From IMG/VR virus record IMGVR_UViG_3300047550_002401, positions 1 through 32,542 of that record: a DNA stretch of 32,542 nucleotides, one strand, 5' to 3'. This document shows, piece by piece, positions 428 to 30,930 of the stretch. The stretch's first letter is position 1; every line of letters begins with the position of its first letter. The stretch comes from a virus. The notes beneath the pieces were generated by a model. The model ran no database searches. It had not been told where the DNA came from and was given only the letters and a program-made list of their open reading frames with translations. The position numbers and the translations under genes are program-made.

Positions 428-2425
428 CTACTTAGCTTCGGCCCAAGACTTACCGATACCTGCCTCTGCTGTAAGAGGTACACCCCCCAGCATGGGGCGA
501 CCATCAAACTGCACACTCTCCATGACCCCTACTAGCAGGTCCCGAGCGTCTTCGACATCTGTTTCCGGGGCCTGGATGAGGATCTCGTCATGAACATTTA
601 GGAGAATCTTGAAGGGGCTTCCCGTAAGAGCGACGTGCAGATCTATGAGGGCCTGCTTCATGACATTAGCAGCGAACCCTTGAACAATTGAGTTCACTAC
701 TTGGCGCTCTGCGCGAGCCCGCAGCTTGTGATCGTCTGAATACAAGTCCGGGAGACGACGACGCCTCCCAAATGGAGGTATGACTGCGTACGGAACGTTT
801 CTAACGTCCCCACGCTTTCCCGTATTACGGGATTTAATCACCATGCTGTCTTTCCAGTTGGACAGCCCAGAGAATTGTTGGAAGTAACGGTCTATGAAGC
901 CCTTCGCTTCCTCTAGCGAACAGTTTGCTACAGCGGCAAGCTTACCGGGACCTGCACCGTAAAGGGTCCCAAAGTTTTGGGTCTTACCTATCTGGCGCTG
1001 ATCCCTGGTTACACCATCAATAGGCACCCCGAGCATCGCTGCCGCCGCCTGAGCGTGAATGTCCAGGCCTTCCAAGAATACCCTAAACATCTCCTTATCT
1101 CCCGATAAGAAGGCGGCACACCGAAGCTCCACTTGATCATAGTCAGCAACTACCAGCAGGTGCCCGGGATCGGCCACGAACGTCTTCCTAATTGCCCCGT
1201 CACGAGGTATCTGCTGAAGATTAGGATTGGTTGAGCTGAGGCGTCCCGTAACGGCACGATGCTGGTTGAACGACGTATGCAGTCGTCCGTTAATCATGCG
1301 GTCAGATAGCCCAGTAATAAAGGTGCTGATCAGCTTATCCTTCTCGGTCCAATCCAGAAGGAGTCTGGCCAACTCGTTGGTTGGAGCGTAGTACTCAAGA
1401 GTGGCCTGGTTGACTTGTGGGGAGTTAGTCTTAGGGCTAAAAGACAAGGGCTTCAAGCCTTGTCCACCCAATTTCTTAGGGCCGAAAAGATAGTTTCTCT
1501 TAGATGTCGGATTGCTGAGAGGAAACTGTTGCCCGCAAATGGACCAGATACGCCCAGCAGTAGCCTGCCTATCGTGTTCGTACTCTGCGCCAGCCCTAGA
1601 CAGGGCGTCCGTATCTATGCGGATACCCCTCAGCTCCATATCCATTAGGGCCGGATACAGGTCCATTTCCAGAGCAAATGCCCTCTGAAGGCCCGGAGTC
1701 TTCTCCAACAAGCCCTTGTGCTCACGATAGAAAAGGTGTGTATACCACACATCCTTGGCTAGATACCGGGCCACCTGGTCTATGGGCTGCTCGGAAACAC
1801 CTAACTTGCCTAGGTTAGGATAGAACTCGCTACGAAGCTTAGGGTTAGGCGGAACCTTCAGCCAGTCCATAACTAGGTCCTTCAGACCAAACCTATCAAG
1901 GTTTTCGTCAAGCACCTGAGTAAGGATGAGCGTGTCTACGTACGGACCTGGGATAATGGCACCACCGTAGTACTTTGCTATCGACTGAATATCGAACTTA
2001 ACGTTGTGACCTACCTTGACCCGATCACTAAACAGCAGTGGCTTGATCGCAGAAAACACCATGTCAGGTCGCAACTGAATACCAGGGTCACCGAACGTCG
2101 CTGGAACGACGAAGGTTTTTTTCGCCGTACTAAGGGAGCCGTTTTTCAAAACCCGGCGGTCATCGTCAGGTGGAACACGCTTTTCCCTGACCGACGGGGT
2201 AAGCATTACTCCCAAGGGATGACCCATGGGTATGAGAACTACGCGATCTGGTACCGCAAAGCCTATCCAAGAAACTTCGTTTACCTTCGGGTGGGCAAAG
2301 TTAGTCTCAACGTCCAAAACTAGGGTGTCATACCTACTTAGACAGCTAACTTCCCTAGCCAGGTCTTCCATAGTTCTAACAAGACGGGGGACAGCCCGCA
2401 GGCTGCCCCCCTGTACGATGGTCAT
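428..2425 (-). CDS. Family A DNA polymerase with 3'-5' exonuclease
   Basis: A 665-aa phage replicative polymerase. The N-terminal proofreading domain has Exo I LDVET (D38, E40), Exo II GHNVKFD (N141, D145) and Exo III YLAKD (Y221, D225), so all expected catalytic residues are present. The polymerase domain has motif A VVADYDQVELR (D428), the O-helix RQIGKTQNFGTLYG (R477, K481, F485, Y489) and motif C VHDE (H612-E614). Phe at the NFG position is the form that discriminates against dideoxynucleotides in E. coli Pol I. There is no 5'-3' exonuclease domain, as is usual for phage enzymes. It follows the SSB-like gene by 8 nt. The Shine-Dalgarno is weak, so coupling to upstream translation is likely. 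Family assignment is secure. Confidence 0.97.
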   Translation of the reverse strand: MTIVQGGSLRAVPRLVRTMEDLAREVSCLSRYDTLVLDVETNFAHPKVNEVSWIGFAVPDRVVLIPMGHPLGVMLTPSVREKRVPPDDDRRVLKNGSLSTAKKTFVVPATFGDPGIQLRPDMVFSAIKPLLFSDRVKVGHNVKFDIQSIAKYYGGAIIPGPYVDTLILTQVLDENLDRFGLKDLVMDWLKVPPNPKLRSEFYPNLGKLGVSEQPIDQVARYLAKDVWYTHLFYREHKGLLEKTPGLQRAFALEMDLYPALMDMELRGIRIDTDALSRAGAEYEHDRQATAGRIWSICGQQFPLSNPTSKRNYLFGPKKLGGQGLKPLSFSPKTNSPQVNQATLEYYAPTNELARLLLDWTEKDKLISTFITGLSDRMINGRLHTSFNQHRAVTGRLSSTNPNLQQIPRDGAIRKTFVADPGHLLVVADYDQVELRCAAFLSGDKEMFRVFLEGLDIHAQAAAAMLGVPIDGVTRDQRQIGKTQNFGTLYGAGPGKLAAVANCSLEEAKGFIDRYFQQFSGLSNWKDSMVIKSRNTGKRGDVRNVPYAVIPPFGRRRRLPDLYSDDHKLRARAERQVVNSIVQGFAANVMKQALIDLHVALTGSPFKILLNVHDEILIQAPETDVEDARDLLVGVMESVQFDGRPMLGGVPLTAEAGIGKSWAEAK

Positions 2426-3766: not shown

Positions 3767-4252
3767 CTAACGACCCTTTGACTTCACAAGAACAAAGGCA
3801 AAGGACTCTTTTTCGGAGTACAAACCGGCGACAACGTCGTCCGGCAACCGCCCAGCGTAGTTAGCTGCCAAAAGAGCGTCCTCGTTGACAACCAACACAG
3901 TCTCAAGGCACTCAGACAACCCGAACTCCTCAATCGCCTTGAGGGCGGCGTCTTCGTCAAGACGCTGAGACAGTCGGCGCTCCCGCTTGATTGCCGACAC
4001 CTCACCTATGGGGCTAGGGAGTTGAAAAACTGAATTGCCCTTATCGTCTGCCTGGCACTCCTCGGCCAGGAATCTAAGCAGATTCTTCTTCGCCTGACCC
4101 TCTACAGCCTCAAGAGACTCCCGCCCCTTGCGGTACTCAAGGTACCGAGTGACCCACTGCATCGGGCCACCTACCAAGTCTGTGTTGAGATCCTCGTTCA
4201 CGATGCCATTCTCCGATGCGAATACTGGGTCTACGAAAGGTAGCCCGACCAT
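3767..4252 (-). CDS. Hypothetical replication-operon protein
   Basis: A 161-aa acidic protein without a recognisable family. The middle (residues about 45-110) is charged and helical (YRKGRESLEAVEGQAKK, KRERRLSQRLDED). The C-terminus is alpha/beta (ETVLVVNEDALLAAN, FAFVLVKS). No transmembrane segment, signal peptide or metal motif is visible. It starts 9 nt after the SNF2-type ATPase stop and lacks a clear Shine-Dalgarno, so it probably depends on translation of the ATPase. The tight coupling suggests it acts in DNA replication or repair, perhaps as a partner of the ATPase; that is inference. Confidence 0.65.
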   Translation of the reverse strand: MVGLPFVDPVFASENGIVNEDLNTDLVGGPMQWVTRYLEYRKGRESLEAVEGQAKKNLLRFLAEECQADDKGNSVFQLPSPIGEVSAIKRERRLSQRLDEDAALKAIEEFGLSECLETVLVVNEDALLAANYAGRLPDDVVAGLYSEKESFAFVLVKSKGR

Positions 4253-4261
4253 GCGGCGATG

Positions 4262-5821
4262 TCAACTACTTGACAGAAACTCCCGCAAACTTTCTAGGGT
4301 CAGAGGGAGTTGCCCTGAGGAGTCAAACTTTCCGTCGATGAACGCTTCAGCGATCCGCTTCTTCTGCCTAAGCATGTCGTACTGCCGCTCCTCAATAGTC
4401 CCCCGACAGAACATTGAGTCAATAAATATGGATTCACTTACCGAGGAAGTCCTATCAATGCGAGCAACTCGCTGGGCAAACGCCCCGGCCGACCAAGGGA
4501 GATCGTAACTTATCAGGTGCGTACCTGAGTTCAGGTTCACACCGTACGCCCCCGCATCCGACGAGAGAAACACTCTGCACCGGTAGTCAGAGTTGAACTT
4601 GACGATACTCTCGTCCCGGCTCTTAGAAGGTATATCCCCCGTTAGAAGAGTATATCCGTACTTAGCTTCCCGCAGTTCCTCGGAGATGATACTCAGCATT
4701 GCCTTAAATCCGCTGAAAACCACAACCTTATTTGAAGGATCTTCTCCCAATATGGCATCTATCTTATCCATCAGATACTTCAACTTAGGAGAGGTCTGGG
4801 GGGCACCAGAAAGTAACCCCCCTTCCCTCAGGGAGGCTGCATACTGAGACCCACCAAGAACATCGGGATCATCAAAGTCCTTGGCACTTTTGAGCAAAAG
4901 CTGCGGGTGTCCGCAGAGAAGCCTCATCGCCATGACCCTGGACATAACCATGCCCTTGAACTTCCCACCATCATCCTCGCCATCCGACCGTCCATAGGCG
5001 CCAAGAAGGTCGAAACCGCCCATACCGGCGTCAAGCGCCATGTCTAGGACGTTCAGCAGGTCGGAGCGTATGTGCCGGTACAGGCTCGTGCCCCAGGCAC
5101 CTAACTCTACCGGAGAGTCTACCGTGACCACGTCGGGCAGAAACTGCGAAATATCGTCCCGACTTTTTCTAAACATAGCAGCAGCCAACGTGGAGTGCAG
5201 GAGTCCTAGGTTCTTATAACTCCTAGGCCTCCCCCAATGGTCTCTAGATATAAACGTACGGTCGAACTTATCAAACCTTCCCAAAACCGAAGGGTCGACG
5301 AACTCCATGATTGAGAACAGCTCCTCGGGCCGGTTTTCTACAGGCTGACCAGACATACCAAACCGGAATGGGGTGTGCTTGCCGAGAGCTTTCAATCGCC
5401 GAGACTTTTGTGCTCGGAAGCTCTTTATATTCGTACATTCGTCAGCCACTAAAAAATCTATTGGTAGAAACTCCTGAATCAACTCCCAATCGTGAATCAG
5501 GGATTCATAGTTCAGAATGGTATAGAGGTGGCTAGACGCTGACATGTACAAGAGGCGACGCTTTTTGGCGTCTCCGTCTATGACCAGCACTGACTCCCCT
5601 GGAGCCCAGTGCTCAATCTCTCGCGCCCACTGAAACTTCGTGCTGTTCTGAACGAACACCGATCCGGCAATAACTTTGCCGGAGGCTGCCAGTGATTGAA
5701 CAGTCTCAATGGCAACACGAGTTTTGCCTGACCCCATGGTCATTGCCAGAAGCAGGCTGCCACGCTCACAGCACTTCTGAACAGCGTCTTCCTGGTAAGG
5801 TCGGAGAGGAGGTAGATCCAT
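4262..5821 (-). CDS. SNF2-type DEAD-like helicase/translocase
   Basis: A 519-aa superfamily 2 ATPase from the chosen start MDLPPLRPYQ. The frame is open further upstream to 5929, but that extension lies inside the primase gene; the start at 5821 is 4 nt after the primase stop and begins at the Q motif (LRPYQEDAV). Walker A is MTMGSGKTR (K33), motif II is VADECT (D127, E128), motif III is GMSGQPVEN, and motifs V-VI are GAYGVNLNSG and QRVARIDRTS near the C-terminus. GQPVEN together with QRVARIDR is characteristic of SNF2-family DNA translocases. In phage replication operons such proteins are thought to remodel forks or displace bound proteins. The specific job here is unknown. Confidence 0.92.
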   Translation of the reverse strand: MDLPPLRPYQEDAVQKCCERGSLLLAMTMGSGKTRVAIETVQSLAASGKVIAGSVFVQNSTKFQWAREIEHWAPGESVLVIDGDAKKRRLLYMSASSHLYTILNYESLIHDWELIQEFLPIDFLVADECTNIKSFRAQKSRRLKALGKHTPFRFGMSGQPVENRPEELFSIMEFVDPSVLGRFDKFDRTFISRDHWGRPRSYKNLGLLHSTLAAAMFRKSRDDISQFLPDVVTVDSPVELGAWGTSLYRHIRSDLLNVLDMALDAGMGGFDLLGAYGRSDGEDDGGKFKGMVMSRVMAMRLLCGHPQLLLKSAKDFDDPDVLGGSQYAASLREGGLLSGAPQTSPKLKYLMDKIDAILGEDPSNKVVVFSGFKAMLSIISEELREAKYGYTLLTGDIPSKSRDESIVKFNSDYRCRVFLSSDAGAYGVNLNSGTHLISYDLPWSAGAFAQRVARIDRTSSVSESIFIDSMFCRGTIEERQYDMLRQKKRIAEAFIDGKFDSSGQLPLTLESLREFLSSS

Positions 5822-5825
5822 GTGA

Positions 5826-6722
5826 TCATCCAAACTGCAGTGAAAGACTGGACTCCCAGATCTCTCGTAGTACGGAGTCGCTTTTAGCGTCTCCCGGGTC
5901 TTTAGCGCCGCCCAACCTACCGTAGTCAAACGGGACTACAACGCACCCCATGGAACGTAGAGACCCGAGAACACGGTTAGCAGACTTACCTGCTGCGTCG
6001 TTATCCATCCCGGCGACGACAAACCGTATGTTACGGCTAATAATAGACAGTTGCTCTTGACTTATACCTGCTCCGAAGGTAGCGATCGACGGCACACCGG
6101 CACCGTGAAGCCGCACGACGTCGAGCGGAGACTCAACGATCACGGCCCTGTCGCCGTCAACCAGATGGAATCCGAACAAGGTTTTAGACTTCTCCATACC
6201 TTTGGGATGGTTCAGTACCGACCCCTTGCGTCGAAACTGATAGCCCATAAGATCTCCTGACGGGGACCGTATCGGTATGACCCACATCTTTCTTGTGGGA
6301 TCCCACTTGATCCCAAAAGCATCCACAGATTGACGTAAAAGCCTCTTGATGTCCAATAGAGGCTGCGGCATGTCTCTGAACGAGTTGCTCAAAACCCATT
6401 CGTTCACGCTAGGACCGACTGGCTCCGGCGGCGAGGCGGACTGAGCAAAGGCCGATAATACAGAGGATTTCTTTATAGACCACTCAAGGTCCTCCGGCAC
6501 GGAGCCGGACAGATCTCGATAAAGACTTGACAAGGACCCTGCGTAGCCACAACTGAAACAGTAGTGTGCCAAGCTGACAGCGTTTATCGACCACGAAGGG
6601 TTTGAATCCGGCCTACCTGTGCGGATCTCGTGCATCGGGCACTTAGCAACAACCTCGTCGCCTGACAGCCTTATTACAGAGACCCCAAGGTCGAAGAGGA
6701 CGCTCTCAACATCAAGCGACAT
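5826..6722 (-). CDS. DnaG-type DNA primase (zinc finger plus Toprim)
   Basis: A 298-aa primase that makes RNA primers for lagging-strand synthesis. The N-terminal CHC2-like zinc site is formed by C28, H31, C55 and C58 (CPMH ... CFSC). The Toprim core has VIVESPLDVVRLHG (E197, D201) and VAGMDNDAAGKSA (D240, D242), the metal-binding acidic residues. It is about half the length of bacterial DnaG and lacks the C-terminal helicase-interaction domain. The start overlaps the DnaB-type gene by 11 nt, consistent with co-production of helicase and primase. Confidence 0.93.
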   Translation of the reverse strand: MSLDVESVLFDLGVSVIRLSGDEVVAKCPMHEIRTGRPDSNPSWSINAVSLAHYCFSCGYAGSLSSLYRDLSGSVPEDLEWSIKKSSVLSAFAQSASPPEPVGPSVNEWVLSNSFRDMPQPLLDIKRLLRQSVDAFGIKWDPTRKMWVIPIRSPSGDLMGYQFRRKGSVLNHPKGMEKSKTLFGFHLVDGDRAVIVESPLDVVRLHGAGVPSIATFGAGISQEQLSIISRNIRFVVAGMDNDAAGKSANRVLGSLRSMGCVVVPFDYGRLGGAKDPGDAKSDSVLREIWESSLSLQFG

Positions 6723-8031
6723 CGTCGTCCCAGAAGGCGTGCAATGATGAGGGATTGGGCCTACCAGACGAAGCGATCGGCTGGTGGTTGTTCACCAAGG
6801 CGTCGTACGTAGCGGAGTCAAGCTCTTCGATAAGACCTCGGCTCCAGTCAAAGCGCACAAAAGAATCCCCCTTGGGAGAGGACCTAGAAGCAATTACTTT
6901 GAAAGTAGACACGTCTGGTATCTGACCATGCGGCTCAACGCCAAAAACAATGTCTGAGTCCTGAGCAAAGGACGACGAGTACCCTATAGACTCCATCTTA
7001 AGACCGCCCTTAGACCTATACAGCATAGCCTGTGTCGAAATAATGATCGGTATACGCCGTGTCTGGGCCAGCCGCTTAAACCCACGGGTCAAGCTGGTCA
7101 AGGCTTGAGGAGTACCCTTGTCATTACCCGACTCGTCATCCATCAGGTATACGCCGTCTACGATAACCAGGGCCGGGTTGTACTGGTTTATCTTAGCCTG
7201 CACTCCCGACACAGTTATGGCTGACGACACATCGCTGGTAATGGTAAAGCCCCCCATAGCCGACCTGACTCGTAAGGCTTTACCGATCCTCTTCTCCTCA
7301 TCAGGAGAAAACGTACCGGTAAGTATCTTCGTCAGGCCAACGCCGGAGATTAGGGACACAAGGCGGTCTTCCTGCTCTTCAGTGGACATCTCAAAGGTAA
7401 CGAAGAGTACGTGGTTTCCGTTACGGTGAGCGTTGAAGGCAAGCTTCAACAACATTGAAGACTTACCCGCTTTAGGGGTTCCGACCATGGTTATGAGCTG
7501 TTCAGGCTGGAGCCCGCCTGTCAATCGGTCTATACCGTCCAACCCAGTAGTTATACCACGAAGAAATCCAGGATTATCCCGACGTTCACGAAGGCGATCC
7601 AAAACCCGCCCATACGACAAGAAGAAGTCGGTGTCTCTGCCCTGGCTGATCTCATGAGCGGCGTTGGCGAGACCTTGACGCATGATTGACTCAAGGTCAT
7701 CCCCAACGTCCAGACCCTCGTCTTCCTTTAACCGCTGTACAAAGTCTTGAACCGAGGCGGTAAGAATAACCTTCTTACGGTCCTGCTGAAGCTTGTGCAG
7801 GTAGAAAGAGGTCGGCTCAGGGTATGGTACGAAACCATACGTCGGGTAAGCGGCGTGAACAGCGTCCTCAGACGGCGGCTTACCGTACTTTTTATAGTGA
7901 TCAAGGACCATCTCCCAAACACGACAGTGAGAAGGGTCAGGGAAAAAATCCTTACTGATCTTGGACTCAATGAACGGTACGATCTCACCGGACAAGACAA
8001 TCTTCGACAAGCAGGCATTCTGAACATCCAT
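6712..8031 (-). CDS. DnaB-type replicative helicase
   Basis: A 439-aa RecA-fold hexameric helicase. The N-terminal helical domain (residues 1-100) includes VWEMVLDHYKKYGKPPSED, typical of DnaB N-domains. The C-terminal ATPase has Walker A GTPKAGKSS (K190), a glutamate-bearing FEMS strand (E214), Walker B VIVDGVYLM, and IIISTQA as the downstream glutamine sensor. The chosen ATG at 8031 overlaps the preceding stop as TGATG; a TTG three bases further upstream is possible but less likely. Together with the loader, initiator and primase it forms the fork-opening machinery. Confidence 0.93.
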   Translation of the reverse strand: MDVQNACLSKIVLSGEIVPFIESKISKDFFPDPSHCRVWEMVLDHYKKYGKPPSEDAVHAAYPTYGFVPYPEPTSFYLHKLQQDRKKVILTASVQDFVQRLKEDEGLDVGDDLESIMRQGLANAAHEISQGRDTDFFLSYGRVLDRLRERRDNPGFLRGITTGLDGIDRLTGGLQPEQLITMVGTPKAGKSSMLLKLAFNAHRNGNHVLFVTFEMSTEEQEDRLVSLISGVGLTKILTGTFSPDEEKRIGKALRVRSAMGGFTITSDVSSAITVSGVQAKINQYNPALVIVDGVYLMDDESGNDKGTPQALTSLTRGFKRLAQTRRIPIIISTQAMLYRSKGGLKMESIGYSSSFAQDSDIVFGVEPHGQIPDVSTFKVIASRSSPKGDSFVRFDWSRGLIEELDSATYDALVNNHQPIASSGRPNPSSLHAFWDDDVA

Positions 8032-8465
8032 CAAAAGTCACCGCCCCAAAATGACTGGAAAGCCTTGACGCCATAGTGCTCTAACCGCGAGCTATCCGAG
8101 TCCACCACGACATGCAAGTCTGGTCTCCATAGGATGGACTTGCAGAACCAGCCAAAGTCGTAGAACTCGCATGATGCCACGCGTATGTCGTACCGATACA
8201 CCCAGTCGGCGCAGCTATCTGCAACCTCTTGACTGGTAAACGTCACAATATCTATAGGTATGTTCAGTCGAAAGGCTTTGTCGTTGATAAGCCTGATGGC
8301 ATGGCCGGACCACTCCCACGTATCCGGTGAAGGAGTCGGTCCCACCCATCCTCGTCGGAGGAACTTACGCCCTGACACAGTCGCCGGAGGAACCTTAGCC
8401 AGTATACCCTCTAATACTACGGCCACCCGTCGCTCATTCCAGGAAGCCAAGTCTCCGCCCTGCAT
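8031..8465 (-). CDS. HAD-like protein with degenerate catalytic motif (tentative)
   Basis: A 144-aa protein between the loader and the helicase. Its layout resembles a small HAD-fold phosphatase: an N-terminal strand RRVAVVLEGILAKV where HAD enzymes have DxDGTL, a second strand IDIVTFTS where motif II ends in Ser/Thr, a Trp-rich helix, a Lys in FCKSILW, and LHVVVDSDSSRLEHYG where motif III/IV places acidic residues. If the alignment is right, the nucleophile Asp is replaced by Val and the second Asp by Glu, so phosphatase activity would be lost. It sits in an unbroken coupled operon. The fold call is by eye and uncertain. Confidence 0.55.
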   Translation of the reverse strand: MQGGDLASWNERRVAVVLEGILAKVPPATVSGRKFLRRGWVGPTPSPDTWEWSGHAIRLINDKAFRLNIPIDIVTFTSQEVADSCADWVYRYDIRVASCEFYDFGWFCKSILWRPDLHVVVDSDSSRLEHYGVKAFQSFWGGDF

Positions 8466-9025
8466 TACCTGACCTGCAGTTCTATAGTGTTACGCTCAAT
8501 GAGCGAGCGCATGCCGCTTGGAAGATTTTCCCAAAGACCGGTTTGGCAAGCCACGAGAGTGGGTAGACCTTTAGCCTCCCTAAACCTGAGCAGGTTCTCC
8601 ACTTCGTAGAACTGCATAGGAGAGTAACACCGGCCAACGTCATCGAGGAACAAGAACTTGCATTCCTTGAGATCCCACAAGGACCGTTCCCAGTCCAAGT
8701 ACTCCTTCCACAAGGCATCATCCCGTGCGTACTTCTGGGTCATGTCCTCCATGCGCCACAAGTTTCGTAGATCAGACAAATAATCGTACTCGGTCCAATA
8801 AATGATTTCCGTAGGAGAAGCGAAGTTGACTTCCAAAAGAAGATCAATCCCTGCAGAAGTTTTTCCTGAGCCAGAGGGAGCTACTAGGCGGGGAGCTAAC
8901 CCCTGATCCCAGGCTTTGGAGTTTATGTACTCACGGGCTATAGGGGTTTCGGAAACCTTGGTCTTAACTCGATTCTTGGCGGGCAAAGAGCCTGGTACAA
9001 AGGTCTTGTCAGGCAACCTAATCAC
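8465..9025 (-). CDS. AAA+ ATPase, probable DnaC/P-like helicase loader
   Basis: A 186-aa AAA+ ATPase with Walker A APSGSGKTS (residues 49-57), Walker B FLFLDDVGR (residues 124-132) and a sensor-like LVACQTG. It is short, and the layout matches DnaC/DnaI-type helicase loaders, which deliver DnaB rings to the origin. The start is GTG at 9025, overlapping the initiator stop by 8 nt. Position directly after an initiator and before a DnaB-type helicase is the lambda O-P order. It could alternatively be another IstB/DnaC-like ATPase, but context favours loading. Confidence 0.85.
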   Translation of the reverse strand: MIRLPDKTFVPGSLPAKNRVKTKVSETPIAREYINSKAWDQGLAPRLVAPSGSGKTSAGIDLLLEVNFASPTEIIYWTEYDYLSDLRNLWRMEDMTQKYARDDALWKEYLDWERSLWDLKECKFLFLDDVGRCYSPMQFYEVENLLRFREAKGLPTLVACQTGLWENLPSGMRSLIERNTIELQVR

Positions 9026-10133
9026 GACGACGGTCCTTTACCATCTGCCGAAACCGTTCCAGCTCCGACTCTTGATCAAGAACTGCTTCTCGGGAACTGC
9101 CGGACTTCTTACGAGCTATTCCCTCAAGCTTGGCTCTATTGAACCAGAAATCTTTCCATAGATCATCACTTTTCAAAACTACTTGACCGGTATCCACAAG
9201 TCTGAAAAATACCCTGACCATCTCAAGGGTCAAATCCAATCCTTGTTCAGAAATCAGTTGCTTAATTCGTGCCTGAAACACCGTCTTCATGGACCAGGGG
9301 TAGGCCAGGTTTTTGCGAGCCGTCCTGCTGTGGACCCACAGCTCGTAGAACAGGTTCAACACCTTAGTGCTCGGTGCTACCGAACCAGAGCCTTTCTTGG
9401 GATTGTCTCGCGGAACGTCAAAGTCGTCAAGGGAATCCTTGGGCGACGCCCACCCATCGTCAGACCGCATTGCTAATTCTTCCTCCCCTGGGGTCGCTGC
9501 GCCTTCGGCGCAGCGAGTACCCGTAGGGTACTCGCTTACTTCCTTGGTTTCTTCTTTGGTATGTAGGACAAACTTCCTGGTCACAGAGTCGCCCATGTTG
9601 TCCTGAGGACAAACTGTGTTGTCCTGAGGACAAACTGTGTTGTCCTGAGGACAAACTGTGTTGTCCTGAGGACCTAAAGGTGAGTCTTCCCCAGTCAACT
9701 TTGTTGACATTGAGGAAGAGCTGTCGGCCCGCAACTTTCCCAAAAAAGAGGATAGAGAGGAGTCCATGCTGGCCCTATCCTGGTACCACTGGCGGCACTC
9801 GGCAACCACACTGTCAGGGATTCCGAACCCCTTGACCCGCCGGAATCGAGAGTCGGATGAACTTCCTGAGAGGGGCACTAAAAGTCCCTTCTTGCGTAGC
9901 CTGAAAAGGCTCGATCGAAGCGTTGAGTGCTCCATGCACATGGACACTGACCAGTCTTGCTGACCCGTAGCAGGGAACCAAGAGAAGGCCATCGACGGTT
10001 CGGAACGCATCCCCCGCACCGCCACCCACATAAGTAGCTGGAAGTCATTAATCGACAGCTTGTGGTGCTGAGACCATCCGAACAAAAAGGCGTTCGACAG
10101 GTCTACTGCTCGGAACCCTGTGTTTCTTGTCAT
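9018..10133 (-). CDS. Winged-helix replication initiator
   Basis: A 371-aa protein. The N-terminal region (residues about 25-90) reads LSINDFQLLMWVAVRG, a long loop, then STLRSSLFRLRKKGLLVPL, a winged-helix DNA-binding domain like those of phage and plasmid initiators. A central linker (about 120-260) is low complexity and contains three and a half CPQDNTV repeats, encoded by a DNA iteron array. The C-terminal helical region (about 260-340, LFYELWVHSRTARKN) may contact the loader or helicase. The ATG at 10133 has AGGTTGGT just upstream. A lambda O-like role, binding the iterons in its own gene and recruiting the loader encoded next, is inferred from layout. Confidence 0.85.
   Translation of the reverse strand: MTRNTGFRAVDLSNAFLFGWSQHHKLSINDFQLLMWVAVRGMRSEPSMAFSWFPATGQQDWSVSMCMEHSTLRSSLFRLRKKGLLVPLSGSSSDSRFRRVKGFGIPDSVVAECRQWYQDRASMDSSLSSFLGKLRADSSSSMSTKLTGEDSPLGPQDNTVCPQDNTVCPQDNTVCPQDNMGDSVTRKFVLHTKEETKEVSEYPTGTRCAEGAATPGEEELAMRSDDGWASPKDSLDDFDVPRDNPKKGSGSVAPSTKVLNLFYELWVHSRTARKNLAYPWSMKTVFQARIKQLISEQGLDLTLEMVRVFFRLVDTGQVVLKSDDLWKDFWFNRAKLEGIARKKSGSSREAVLDQESELERFRQMVKDRRRD
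9495..9515. repeat. Perfect 9-bp hairpin inside the initiator gene
   Basis: CGCTGCGCC, a TTC loop, then GGCGCAGCG. It is GC-rich and lies about 80 bp from the iteron array. It shares its last three bases with the next hairpin, so both cannot fold fully at once on one strand. Confidence 0.85.
9513..9535. repeat. Perfect 10-bp hairpin inside the initiator gene
   Basis: GCGAGTACCC, a GTA loop, then GGGTACTCGC. It overlaps the preceding hairpin by three bases. Two perfect stems in coding DNA at this spot, next to iterons, suggest an origin structure or a translational control element. Confidence 0.85.
9598..9673. repeat. Iteron array: 21-bp tandem repeats, 3 full copies plus 1 partial
   Basis: Three identical 21-bp units begin at 9598, 9619 and 9640, followed by a 13-bp partial copy at 9661. 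Each contains TTGTCCTGAGGAC; the core TGTCCT-G-AGGACA is a perfect inverted repeat around one base. A degenerate half-site, AGGACAAACT, occurs at 9565-9574. A 21-bp period equals two helical turns, placing every site on the same DNA face. Confidence 0.93.
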
Positions 10134-10186: not shown

Positions 10187-10303
10187 TGTTCGGGGAGAGC
10201 GACAGTCGCCGCCCTTGGGTGTGAGGGGTTCGTCGCTGACGGCTCATCCCCGGCCACGGGCCTCTTTGCTACCGGAGGCCCGTGCTCTCTGAGAGAATAG
10301 CAG

Positions 10304-10331
10304 CAGGGGTCCCACAGGTGTGGGACCCCTG
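10304..10331 (-). terminator. Terminator-like hairpin after tRNA-Ile
   Basis: A perfect 13-bp inverted repeat, CAGGGGTCCCACA, GG, TGTGGGACCCCTG, beginning 3 nt beyond the tRNA 3' end. On the minus strand it is followed by CTGCTATTCTCTC, not a clean U-tract, so it may be a GC-rich terminator or processing signal. The symmetric stem could also stop plus-strand transcription. Confidence 0.6.
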
Positions 10332-10334
10332 ATG

Positions 10335-10407
10335 TGGGCCCGGTGGGGATTGAACCCACGACCAAACGAATATAAGTCGCCTGCTCTGACCGCTGAGCTA
10401 CAGGCCC
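10335..10407 (-). tRNA. tRNA-Ile, anticodon UAU
   Basis: A full cloverleaf: acceptor GGGCCTG/CGGGCCC with one G-U pair, D-arm GCTC/GAGC, anticodon stem GGCGA/TCGTT (two G-U pairs), loop CTTATAT, T-arm GTGGG-TTCAATC-CCCAC. The loop's central triplet is TAT, reading AUA. CCA is not encoded. It lies 18 nt after the upstream protein gene, so it is probably co-transcribed with it. Most bacteria read AUA with a lysidine-modified CAU tRNA, so a UAU tRNA is uncommon. Confidence 0.92.
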
Positions 10408-10425: not shown

Positions 10426-11223
10426 TCAGAAGGTCAGTTGCGAGAACTGCTCAACTGTCAGGGAGTCCATAGAAATCGACTGATCGGGAAACACCGTCAG
10501 TAGGTAGTACTGACGGTCAGTACCTTTAGTGGCGGGCACGGTACCAGTATCAGTAGATACGCCAAGGATTGCCTCGATAAGAGACTCCTTTGACCTCATG
10601 TCCTTGGGCACTAGTCCTCGGGCCCCGACGATAGACTTCAACTCGTCCCTCGTAAGCTCCTCAAGCTCCTCACGGGTAAACCCGTCCAGTTGATCGGGAC
10701 TAACTTGGCTGGCCAGCTTGAGTGCCTCAAGCACGTCCGCCTCCTCAACTACGGGTTGAGGAGGGTCGATTTGTTCGACAACAGTGGGCGCATCTTGCTC
10801 GATGGTGAGCGGAGCCATCTGACCGCCGAGATCGAACACTTCTACCCCGTTATCGATGCAAGCATTGATAGCGAAGAGGGCGTCTTCATCGTGGTCGATG
10901 TCATGTGACATGACCAGGAGGCACCATTCCTCAGTAGGGCTGTCCGTTTCCGAAGCGGAGTGGGCCAAGGCACGCGCTACCGGCCGCTTAGCCGTGATGA
11001 TCCTGGCGCAATCCTTGTACTCGTCAAGGAGATCGAACGCAGCAGGCACTACTAGGTCGTAGTCAAACCGGTCACCCATCCAACTCAAGATGGCCTTGGT
11101 GGCAGGGGAGGGGTCCTCATACCCCACCAAGACAAACCTCGTATCGTCGTTGGCCAGAGACGCTAGAGTCTTGACCACTTCCTTAGTGTTAGGATTTCCG
11201 TTTCCGATGATGGTGTATCTCAC
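10426..11223 (-). CDS. Rossmann-like plus SAP/HeH-like domain protein
   Basis: A 265-aa protein that I do not recognise as a whole. Residues 1-135 alternate strands and helices (RYTIIGNGNPNT, TRFVLVGYED, EWCLLVMSHD, NGVEVFDLGGQ), like a Rossmann or nucleotide-binding fold. Residues about 185-225 read FTREELEELTRDELKSIV followed by an Arg/Lys-rich helix ending SLIEAILG, which matches the helix-extended-helix style of SAP, HeH and Rho N-terminal DNA-binding modules. The start is GTG with AGGAG upstream. It is the last protein before tRNA-Ile. A nucleic-acid-binding role is plausible, but no function can be assigned. Confidence 0.75.
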   Translation of the reverse strand: MRYTIIGNGNPNTKEVVKTLASLANDDTRFVLVGYEDPSPATKAILSWMGDRFDYDLVVPAAFDLLDEYKDCARIITAKRPVARALAHSASETDSPTEEWCLLVMSHDIDHDEDALFAINACIDNGVEVFDLGGQMAPLTIEQDAPTVVEQIDPPQPVVEEADVLEALKLASQVSPDQLDGFTREELEELTRDELKSIVGARGLVPKDMRSKESLIEAILGVSTDTGTVPATKGTDRQYYLLTVFPDQSISMDSLTVEQFSQLTF

Positions 11224-29286: not shown

Positions 29287-29292
29287 AGTGAG

Positions 29293-29365
29293 GGCCCGAG
29301 AGGGGAATCGAACCCCTGACCTCCTGTTTACAAGACAGGTGCTCTGCCGATTGAGCTACTCGGGC
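29293..29365 (-). tRNA. tRNA-Thr, anticodon UGU
   Basis: A complete cloverleaf: acceptor GCCCGAG/CTCGGGC, D-arm GCTC/GAGC, anticodon stem CCTGT/ACAGG with loop CTTGTAA, T-arm AGGGG-TTCGATT-CCCCT. The central triplet TGT reads ACA. No CCA is encoded. It sits 14 nt after the fibre gene and just before the tail-operon promoter-like site. Confidence 0.95.
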
Positions 29366-29379
29366 AGCTCCTTGAGGCC

Positions 29380-30930
29380 TTAGTAGTAGAACCCTATAAC
29401 GTCAATTATGAAGTGGGTAGACGCCCCTGGCGACGCTGGGGCCAAGATTTTTATGTTCTGACTAGAGTCCACCGGGGTGGACGTCTCGTTTACAATAATC
29501 ATTCCAACGCCGGTGTTTGTATACCAATTGATCGAGGACGTTTCCAGTGTACTTGGCGTTGCAACATCGCCAGCAACCAGGAGAAAGTGCCCGTTACCCA
29601 CGCAAGAAAATAGGGTTATGTTGACAAGCGCCCCTGTTGACCCAGCAGGTATGATCCCACTAAGTGGGATAGTCCTATCCGATACTGTGGATGTCAGCGT
29701 AAAGGTTCCCCCCGAGAGGCTGCTGTTGTACGCTCTCCGTGGAACTCTCAAGAAGTTCAGCCCAGTACCAGACATCCTGCTCCATTTGGAGCTAGTCCCT
29801 GAACCAGAAGTTTTGCAATACCAAAGATTCTGAGCGTTGTCGCGAATGACGTCTCCGGCAGCCCACGTTCCTGAAGATGGGGACATGTTAGGTGGAGTGG
29901 ACCCAGAGCCAGTCAGATCGAATGACACTGGAGAAGAGTTTACCAACCGTAGGTTGGGTCCACTGCTGCTGTTTGTAGCGGTGATTGCTGCTGCCGTAGA
30001 CGTGGACGTGGCGGAGAAAGTTTGAACTGTAGTACCGGACCCACCAGACACAGTCAGACCACCGGACAAGGCGGCCGCTCCGCTAACCCCAATAGTTCCA
30101 GTGATACTCAAAGATCCAGTCAAAGAGGATGGTCCTGTAACGCTGAGGCCGGACCCACCAGACACAGTCAGACCACCGGACAAGGCGGCCGCTCCGCTAA
30201 CCCCAATAGTTCCAGTGATACTCAAAGATCCAGTCAAAGAGGATGGTCCTGTAACGCTGAGGCCGGACCCACCAGACACAGTCAGACCACCGGACAAGGT
30301 AGACATGTTGGTAACGGCTAGGGTCCCGTTAGAGGAAACGCTAGAAGCAGTGAAACCCTTGTCGATAGACAGTCCGGCTGAACTAGTGGATAGGATTACT
30401 TCGTTTGACGATGTAGACGTAGTGTTTAGAGTAAGGCCACTTGCAGACCCCGCAAGGGCCCCGGAACCGGCTTTCAGCGAAGTGGTTCCGGTTACGGTTA
30501 GCGAAGATATAGAAGACGTAGTAGATACTAGGGACGTAACTGTACCCTTTGAAACGACTATGTCTCCGTTGCTGAATGTTATGGAAGGAGATCCGACGCC
30601 GGAATAAGCCAGACTAGAAGTAGTAGACGAGGAGTCAAATAGCTGGAGTGCGCTTGATGATAGAACCGTCTTATGTACAGGGGACGGGCTAACCGCTGTG
30701 GTAAACACGAGCCCAGACTTTGTGGTGCTGTAATACACCCTACCTACGTGGTCTCCGAGCAGGTTGTCGACAAGGACACTCGCAGGGGAGTCCCCGTCAA
30801 TACGCACGACAGACCTTTCCTGAAGCCACTCAGAGTCCTCAGCCCGCCAATTGTCTACGTAGTTTACCCAGTCTATGTCGCCTTTATCAGTAGACCCGGA
30901 AGTGACGGTACTTGAGTTTCCTACAGCCAT
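29380..30930 (-). CDS. Repeat-containing fibre protein
   Basis: A 516-aa protein. Residues about 60-330 are Ser/Thr/Gly-rich beta repeats, including two identical copies of a 38-aa unit (LSGGLTVSGGSGLSVTGPSS and onward) plus a partial third. The C-terminal 130 residues are a separate globular domain (LRVPRRAYNSSLSGG, SDRTIPLSGIIPAGSTGALVNITL, ending IDVIGFYY) of a kind seen in surface proteins and fibres of actinobacterial phages. Probable trimeric fibre. It lies among connector genes rather than after the baseplate, so it could be a head/neck fibre or tail fibre. AAGGAG precedes the ATG. Confidence 0.8.
   Translation of the reverse strand: MAVGNSSTVTSGSTDKGDIDWVNYVDNWRAEDSEWLQERSVVRIDGDSPASVLVDNLLGDHVGRVYYSTTKSGLVFTTAVSPSPVHKTVLSSSALQLFDSSSTTSSLAYSGVGSPSITFSNGDIVVSKGTVTSLVSTTSSISSLTVTGTTSLKAGSGALAGSASGLTLNTTSTSSNEVILSTSSAGLSIDKGFTASSVSSNGTLAVTNMSTLSGGLTVSGGSGLSVTGPSSLTGSLSITGTIGVSGAAALSGGLTVSGGSGLSVTGPSSLTGSLSITGTIGVSGAAALSGGLTVSGGSGTTVQTFSATSTSTAAAITATNSSSGPNLRLVNSSPVSFDLTGSGSTPPNMSPSSGTWAAGDVIRDNAQNLWYCKTSGSGTSSKWSRMSGTGLNFLRVPRRAYNSSLSGGTFTLTSTVSDRTIPLSGIIPAGSTGALVNITLFSCVGNGHFLLVAGDVATPSTLETSSINWYTNTGVGMIIVNETSTPVDSSQNIKILAPASPGASTHFIIDVIGFYY
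30037..30299. repeat. 114-bp tandem repeat in the fibre gene
   Basis: Two identical 114-bp copies (30037-30150, 30151-30264) and the first 35 bp of a third (30265-30299). No differences are visible between copies, and the length keeps the reading frame, so the duplication is recent or maintained by gene conversion. Confidence 0.95.

Follow-up and report, generated by a model that had tools for sequence, protein, structure and literature searches.

The stretch of DNA analysed here (the window: the complete IMG/VR record IMGVR_UViG_3300047550_002401, 32,542 bases, a phage fragment) carries a tandem array of dyads within a replication initiator gene. This array is very probably the initiator-binding iteron part of a replication origin that lies inside the coding sequence of its own initiator and works like ori-lambda or SPP1 oriL. 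Intragenic origins are classical; the interest here is the turnover of the iteron motif within a fixed geometry. The features of the gene and of the array are as follows.

9018..10133, minus strand: replication initiator gene, 371 aa (open reading frame, AlphaFold2 model, Foldseek, relatives)
9723..10115, minus strand: predicted DNA-binding winged helix, aa 7-137, including the long helix that follows (AlphaFold2 secondary structure, recognition-helix comparison)
9384..9719, minus strand: predicted disordered linker, aa 139-250, holding the array and a second element (pLDDT <50 over 139-227 and 229-250)
9099..9374, minus strand: helical C-terminal domain, aa 254-345 (AlphaFold2; contact role from the lambda O layout)
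9596..9673, unstranded: iteron array, 3.7 copies of a 21-bp unit, inside gene 9018-10133 (minus strand)
9598..9612, unstranded: dyad 1, TTGTCCTGAGGACAA (motif scan)
9619..9633, unstranded: dyad 2, TTGTCCTGAGGACAA (motif scan)
9640..9654, unstranded: dyad 3, TTGTCCTGAGGACAA (motif scan)
9661..9674, unstranded: dyad 4, imperfect, TTGTCCTGAGGACC (one mismatch)
9563..9575, unstranded: possible fifth half-site, GTAGGACAAACTT (judged from the sequence)

Tandem Repeats Finder reports, at 9596-9673, a period of 21 with 3.7 copies and a 100% match. An earlier sequence-only reading had proposed tandem repeats with TGTCCT-G-AGGACA palindromes in an initiator gene, and this is confirmed; the span that it gave, 9495-9710, does contain the array but is wider, so that two GC-rich hairpins fall within it as well. 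The palindrome starts at 9599, 9620 and 9641, and with one mismatch at 9662, and has no other site in the window. When up to two mismatches are allowed, four matches are found against 0.85 expected, and none of 100 shuffled sequences gave four. In each copy the full dyad is 15 bp long, TTGTCCT-G-AGGACAA, and the possible half-site is offset by 41 bp, near two repeat periods, from the bases that it matches in dyad 1. At the protein level the 21-bp repeat encodes VCPQDNT units. The 19-bp core of the unit, TTGTCCTGAGGACAAACTG, was found in no other contig by an IMG/VR search.

The array encodes aa 154-180 of the initiator, within the predicted linker. The AlphaFold2 model was built from a six-sequence alignment and has low overall confidence (pTM 0.35), with pLDDT values of 75-94 for most blocks of both domains. 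Its layout is that of a DNA-binding N-domain, a flexible linker with the array and a C-terminal domain; by analogy with the domain layout of lambda O, the latter would be the part that contacts the loader or helicase (PMC6022878). With Foldseek, the whole model resembles phage HTH/replication-initiator models (best 6e-6), and the solved folds nearest to the N-domain are MarR-type winged helices (E about 0.008 for the best PDB match). These nearest folds are those of transcription regulators, which favors another reading, in which the array is an operator through which a phage regulator, be it the winged-helix protein or a different one, controls transcription of the replication operon, the origin being elsewhere. 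MarR-type regulators bind 16-18-bp palindromes, and autoregulation is common among initiators. Nevertheless, an operator appears unlikely. The array is located in the middle of the gene and not at a promoter, the gene stands directly upstream of those for the loader, DnaB and primase, its linker and C-terminal domain are arranged as in lambda O, and three regularly spaced sites together with a second conserved element suit an origin better. A double role of the array, as operator and as origin, is possible.

The initiator is followed by a set of replication genes, all on the same strand.

8465..9025, minus strand: AAA+ helicase loader, DnaC/DnaI type (phrog_50, E=3e-4; AlphaFold2 and Foldseek, 3ec2, E=3e-7)
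6712..8034, minus strand: DnaB-type replicative helicase (phrog_19, 1.8e-57; PF03796, 1.5e-25)
5826..6722, minus strand: DNA primase, zinc ribbon and Toprim (phrog_47, 1.4e-30; PF13155)
4262..5929, minus strand: SNF2-like helicase of the replication block (PF00176, 3e-22)
428..2425, minus strand: family A DNA polymerase, PolA (phrog_17, 1.5e-130; PF00476, 1.9e-88)

The order is thus initiator, AAA+ loader, DnaB and primase, then the SNF2-like helicase and PolA. The product of gene 8465-9025 contains Walker A (SGSGKT) and Walker B (FLFLDD) motifs, and its predicted fold is closest to the DnaC structure 3ec2, followed by 6qem (2.8e-6) and 2w58 (1.9e-5); it is therefore predicted to be a DnaC/DnaI-type AAA+ loader. 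The proposed succession of a winged-helix initiator gene and an AAA+ loader is in this way supported by predicted folds, and the DnaB-type helicase and primase attributed to the phage are established by PHROG and Pfam matches. Searches of GTDB genomes with the loader alignment gave no matches, nor did searches of named phages with initiator and loader, or a single-sequence search of IMG/VR with the initiator. This genomic setting also bears on the idea that the array serves in partition, packaging or recombination. Tandem dyads are known at centromere-like and packaging sites as well, but here a helicase loader is encoded next door, the dyads lie in the linker part of a winged-helix gene that belongs to a replication operon, and no terminase or ParA/ParB-like gene was found next to the array among the open reading frames examined. 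A function of this kind is very improbable.

Several smaller features surround these genes. Between loader and DnaB, a 144-aa protein with no assigned family (8031-8465) occupies the same place in all relatives, and the product of 3767-4252 shows weak similarity (E=0.02) to the Mu Gam family. Upstream of the initiator, gene 10426-11223 (start MRYTIIGNGNPNTKEV) is kept in relatives and seems related to BRock gp120 and pSt2308 XTS03745. These two proteins were considered as initiators and rejected, their sequence likeness being to this neighbor gene and not to the initiator. The window also encodes a tRNA-Ile with the rare anticodon tat (10334-10407), with a 16-bp inverted repeat at 10301-10334 after it, and a tRNA-Thr (tgt, 29292-29365); an Rfam scan of the window found nothing besides the two tRNAs.

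The origin reading can be examined in relatives. Scans with DnaB and the loader identified six related IMG/VR contigs, five of them distinct since two have identical initiators; the searched collections yield only these five, and all the relatives, like the window, are fragments. In 6/6 contigs, an array of about three dyad copies with a 21-bp period is found at the same spot of the same gene. Its letters differ. The motif is of TGTG[AC]C-N5-G[GT]CACA type in L003, L004, L005 and L007, of TGTGAA type in L006 and ACGATTC-N5-GAATCGT in L013, so that at least three unrelated repeat sequences stand at the same position and with the same period in homologous genes. Repeat peptides across the family read CPQDNTV (window), VPSGHID, VTSGHID, VKYSHTD and IVNDSDG. 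Since both motif and peptide differ among relatives, it is the geometry of the array that is conserved and not the peptide. In every record the array dyads are restricted to the initiator gene; G000 and G004 each have one additional, single match to the loose pattern TGTG-N9-CACA. L003, L004 and L007, whose motifs are all of TGTG[AC]C type, have one and the same recognition helix, LRKTLSRLRK; in L006, L013 and the window, where the array motifs are different, the helix is different as well. The family thus lets one ask which initiator residues read DNA, and how an origin and its protein evolve jointly if the same bases have to serve for both.

The repeats of the array are conserved as DNA beyond what the protein needs. 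Strong dyads exceed the expectation from synonymous recoding in the window (p=0.0013) and in every relative (p from <0.0004 to 0.03); lambda O, used as a positive control, gives p=0.0003, and p is about 0.01-0.09 in a version of the test restricted to a single unit. The 12 units of the TGTG group all have the arms ATGTG...TCACA unchanged and vary in the centre and spacer. Valine is encoded by GTG in all 12 units, against 14-22% of valines in these records, the 12 units counting as about four lineages because copies within one gene are not independent. Conservation of the iterons at the DNA level had been put forward as a check of the intragenic origin, and a peptide kept while the DNA repeat is lost as the outcome that would speak against it. 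The opposite of that outcome is seen: array geometry, dyads and a second element are kept and the peptide is not, which strongly supports the proposed intragenic origin.

The second element and its surroundings comprise the following features.

9558..9565, minus strand: partial second element, TACATACC, in the window (full form TACATACCCATGTA in relatives)
9536..9575, minus strand: purine-rich tract of 65% A+T, weak candidate for an unwinding element (stability scan of 40-mers)
9494..9516 and 9512..9536, unstranded: two adjoining GC-rich perfect hairpins (sequence; DNA fold z=-4.55)

Common to the relatives is the word TACATACCCATGTA followed by ACCC, located 28-31 bp past the array on the gene strand; ACCC motifs near it repeat every 12 bp (13 bp in L013). 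In L013 this 14-bp word is read in another frame than in L003, L004 and L007, and it is the sole out-of-frame word of at least 11 nt that L013 shares with these three. Codon-shuffled controls matched this shared-word length in 0/200 and 1/200 cases. Identity between L013 and the others is 82-85% in the region of the second element, 53-58% in the protein domains and 41-43% in the array. Across 2.9 million viral contigs the pattern was found in five, all of this family. The window retains only the partial form, plus AAACC 12 bp further on, at 9546-9550. Within the origin, the second element may serve for opening or loading, and its independence of reading frame makes it a concrete candidate for such a site.

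These results also bear on the view that the array is a protein-level feature or a neutral product of slippage, that is, a flexible repetitive linker without function as DNA. The array does lie in a predicted disordered linker, and other tandem repeats occur in these records; G003 and G005, for example, have low-complexity arrays. But chemically unrelated repeat peptides stand at the same spot in all relatives, the dyads exceed synonymous expectation with the arm codons fixed, and conservation of the second element persists across a change of frame. Because of the synonymous-site and out-of-frame tests this view is rejected, and we regard it as scarcely credible.

Under the preferred reading of the array as part of an origin, a nearby site of DNA opening would be expected. 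No 40-mer up to 150 bp from the array is less stable than the tract at 9536-9575. Equally or more unstable 40-mers make up 3% of the window record, as compared with 0.09% for the lambda tract, and the A+T content of the lambda control is higher, at 78%. The 40-mer stability scan found no A+T-rich tract of lambda strength beside the array. The twin hairpins within the initiator linker are of GCGCC and GTACCC types, with stems of 10-11 bp and loops of 3 nt. They occur in the window only and are absent from the relatives; their appearance suggests a palindromic element that was inserted just past the origin array. The element was not found in GTDB genomes.

Nucleotide skew had been suggested as a further check. 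Cumulative raw GC skew is uninformative because the records are fragments, and per-gene GC3 skew was used in its place. Measured on the coding strand, GC3 skew shows a rise at the initiator in G001 (p=0.0014), G004 (0.0054), the window (0.017) and G002 (0.044), and more weakly in G006 (p=0.089); the rise is not seen in G003 (p=0.92), which has only three upstream genes. It occurs although nearly all genes share one strand. The change coincides with the border between late and early modules and reverses farther downstream. GC3 skew is thus compatible with an origin here and weakly favors bidirectional replication from the initiator locus. Since all the records are fragments, a second origin elsewhere is possible.

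From these elements it can be proposed that the winged-helix domain binds as a dimer to the one dyad in each 21-bp unit. A period of 21 bp corresponds to about two helical turns, so three to four dimers would all sit on the same side of the double helix. Once assembled, this complex would open nearby DNA, probably on the side of the second element (9536-9566). The C-terminal domain and the DnaC/DnaI-type loader would then place the phage DnaB, which would recruit the phage primase, and replication would start here. At the level of the family, we slightly favor a view of the origin as a two-part cassette, in which the iterons are replaced together with the DNA-reading helix and a fixed second element would ensure opening or loading independently of specificity. 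The recognition sequence would have been replaced several times along with that helix, the 21-bp spacing and dyad geometry being kept. If so, the family would be a natural experiment in the co-evolution of initiator and origin within one coding sequence.

In lambda, four inverted-repeat iterons of about 18 bp, bound by O dimers, are located in mid-gene, in the flexible linker between the DNA-binding and loader-binding domains of O (PMC5043065; PMC6022878). The array starts at 0.39 of gene O and at 0.41 of the window initiator gene. Unlike lambda, which relies on the DnaB of its host and has an A+T-rich region of 40 bp, the window phage carries its own helicase and primase, and its unit is exactly 21 bp, with none of the 20-24 bp jitter that the lambda annotation shows. 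The term lambda-like therefore holds for the layout only, with no lambda O sequence match and no AT-rich tract of ori-lambda type. The Bacillus phage SPP1 has oriL inside gene 38, with gp38 as origin binder, gp39 as loader and gp40 as DnaB-type helicase; it uses the host DnaG and polymerases, and its origins have AT-rich islands (PMC6316719). As in SPP1, direct repeats of the origin within the initiator gene are followed by a loader and a phage-encoded DnaB. Unlike SPP1, the window phage encodes a primase and a family A polymerase of its own, its loader is a DnaC/DnaI-like AAA+ protein and no strong AT-rich tract is evident. The description of the phage as a hybrid design is thus only partly right, because in SPP1 a loader and a phage-encoded DnaB already accompany an intragenic origin; it becomes a matter of degree, since the phage primase and polymerase go beyond SPP1. 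Pfam and PHROG searches gave no match to lambda O at E<0.1, phage tblastn gave none between the initiator and the SPP1 gp38 family at E<=0.01, and the relatives' initiators have only weak PHROG replication-initiation matches (E 0.03-0.1). As the lambda O and SPP1 gp38 families are unmatched, membership is claimed for the intragenic iteron-origin kind only. In PLE RepA, which has three semi-palindromic iterons, the C-terminal domain is conserved, and variation in the DNA-binding domain goes along with variation in the iterons (PMC8263062). The co-variation is the same here; in contrast to the intergenic PLE origin, motif turnover takes place within the initiator's own coding sequence.

The nearest named genomes are those of the Streptomyces phages BRock and pSt2308 (DnaB 32-34%, PolA 31%), in which loader, DnaB, primase and helicase follow in the same order. 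They differ in the gene that immediately precedes the loader (in BRock, one gene lies between them), which encodes only about 152 aa (L035:16559-17014 and L036:6273-6734, in BRock-like Streptomyces phages). No tandem array was found in these genes. Sequence comparison suggests that their product perhaps resembles the C-terminal domain of the initiator only (hhalign probability 0.9%, E=0.064), which, if so, raises the question of where the origin of BRock-like phages is located. Elsewhere in the window, a perfect 114-bp tandem repeat of 2.3 copies (30035-30299) encodes a 38-aa repeat in the large gene 29380-30930, whose product is probably a tail-fibre-like protein.
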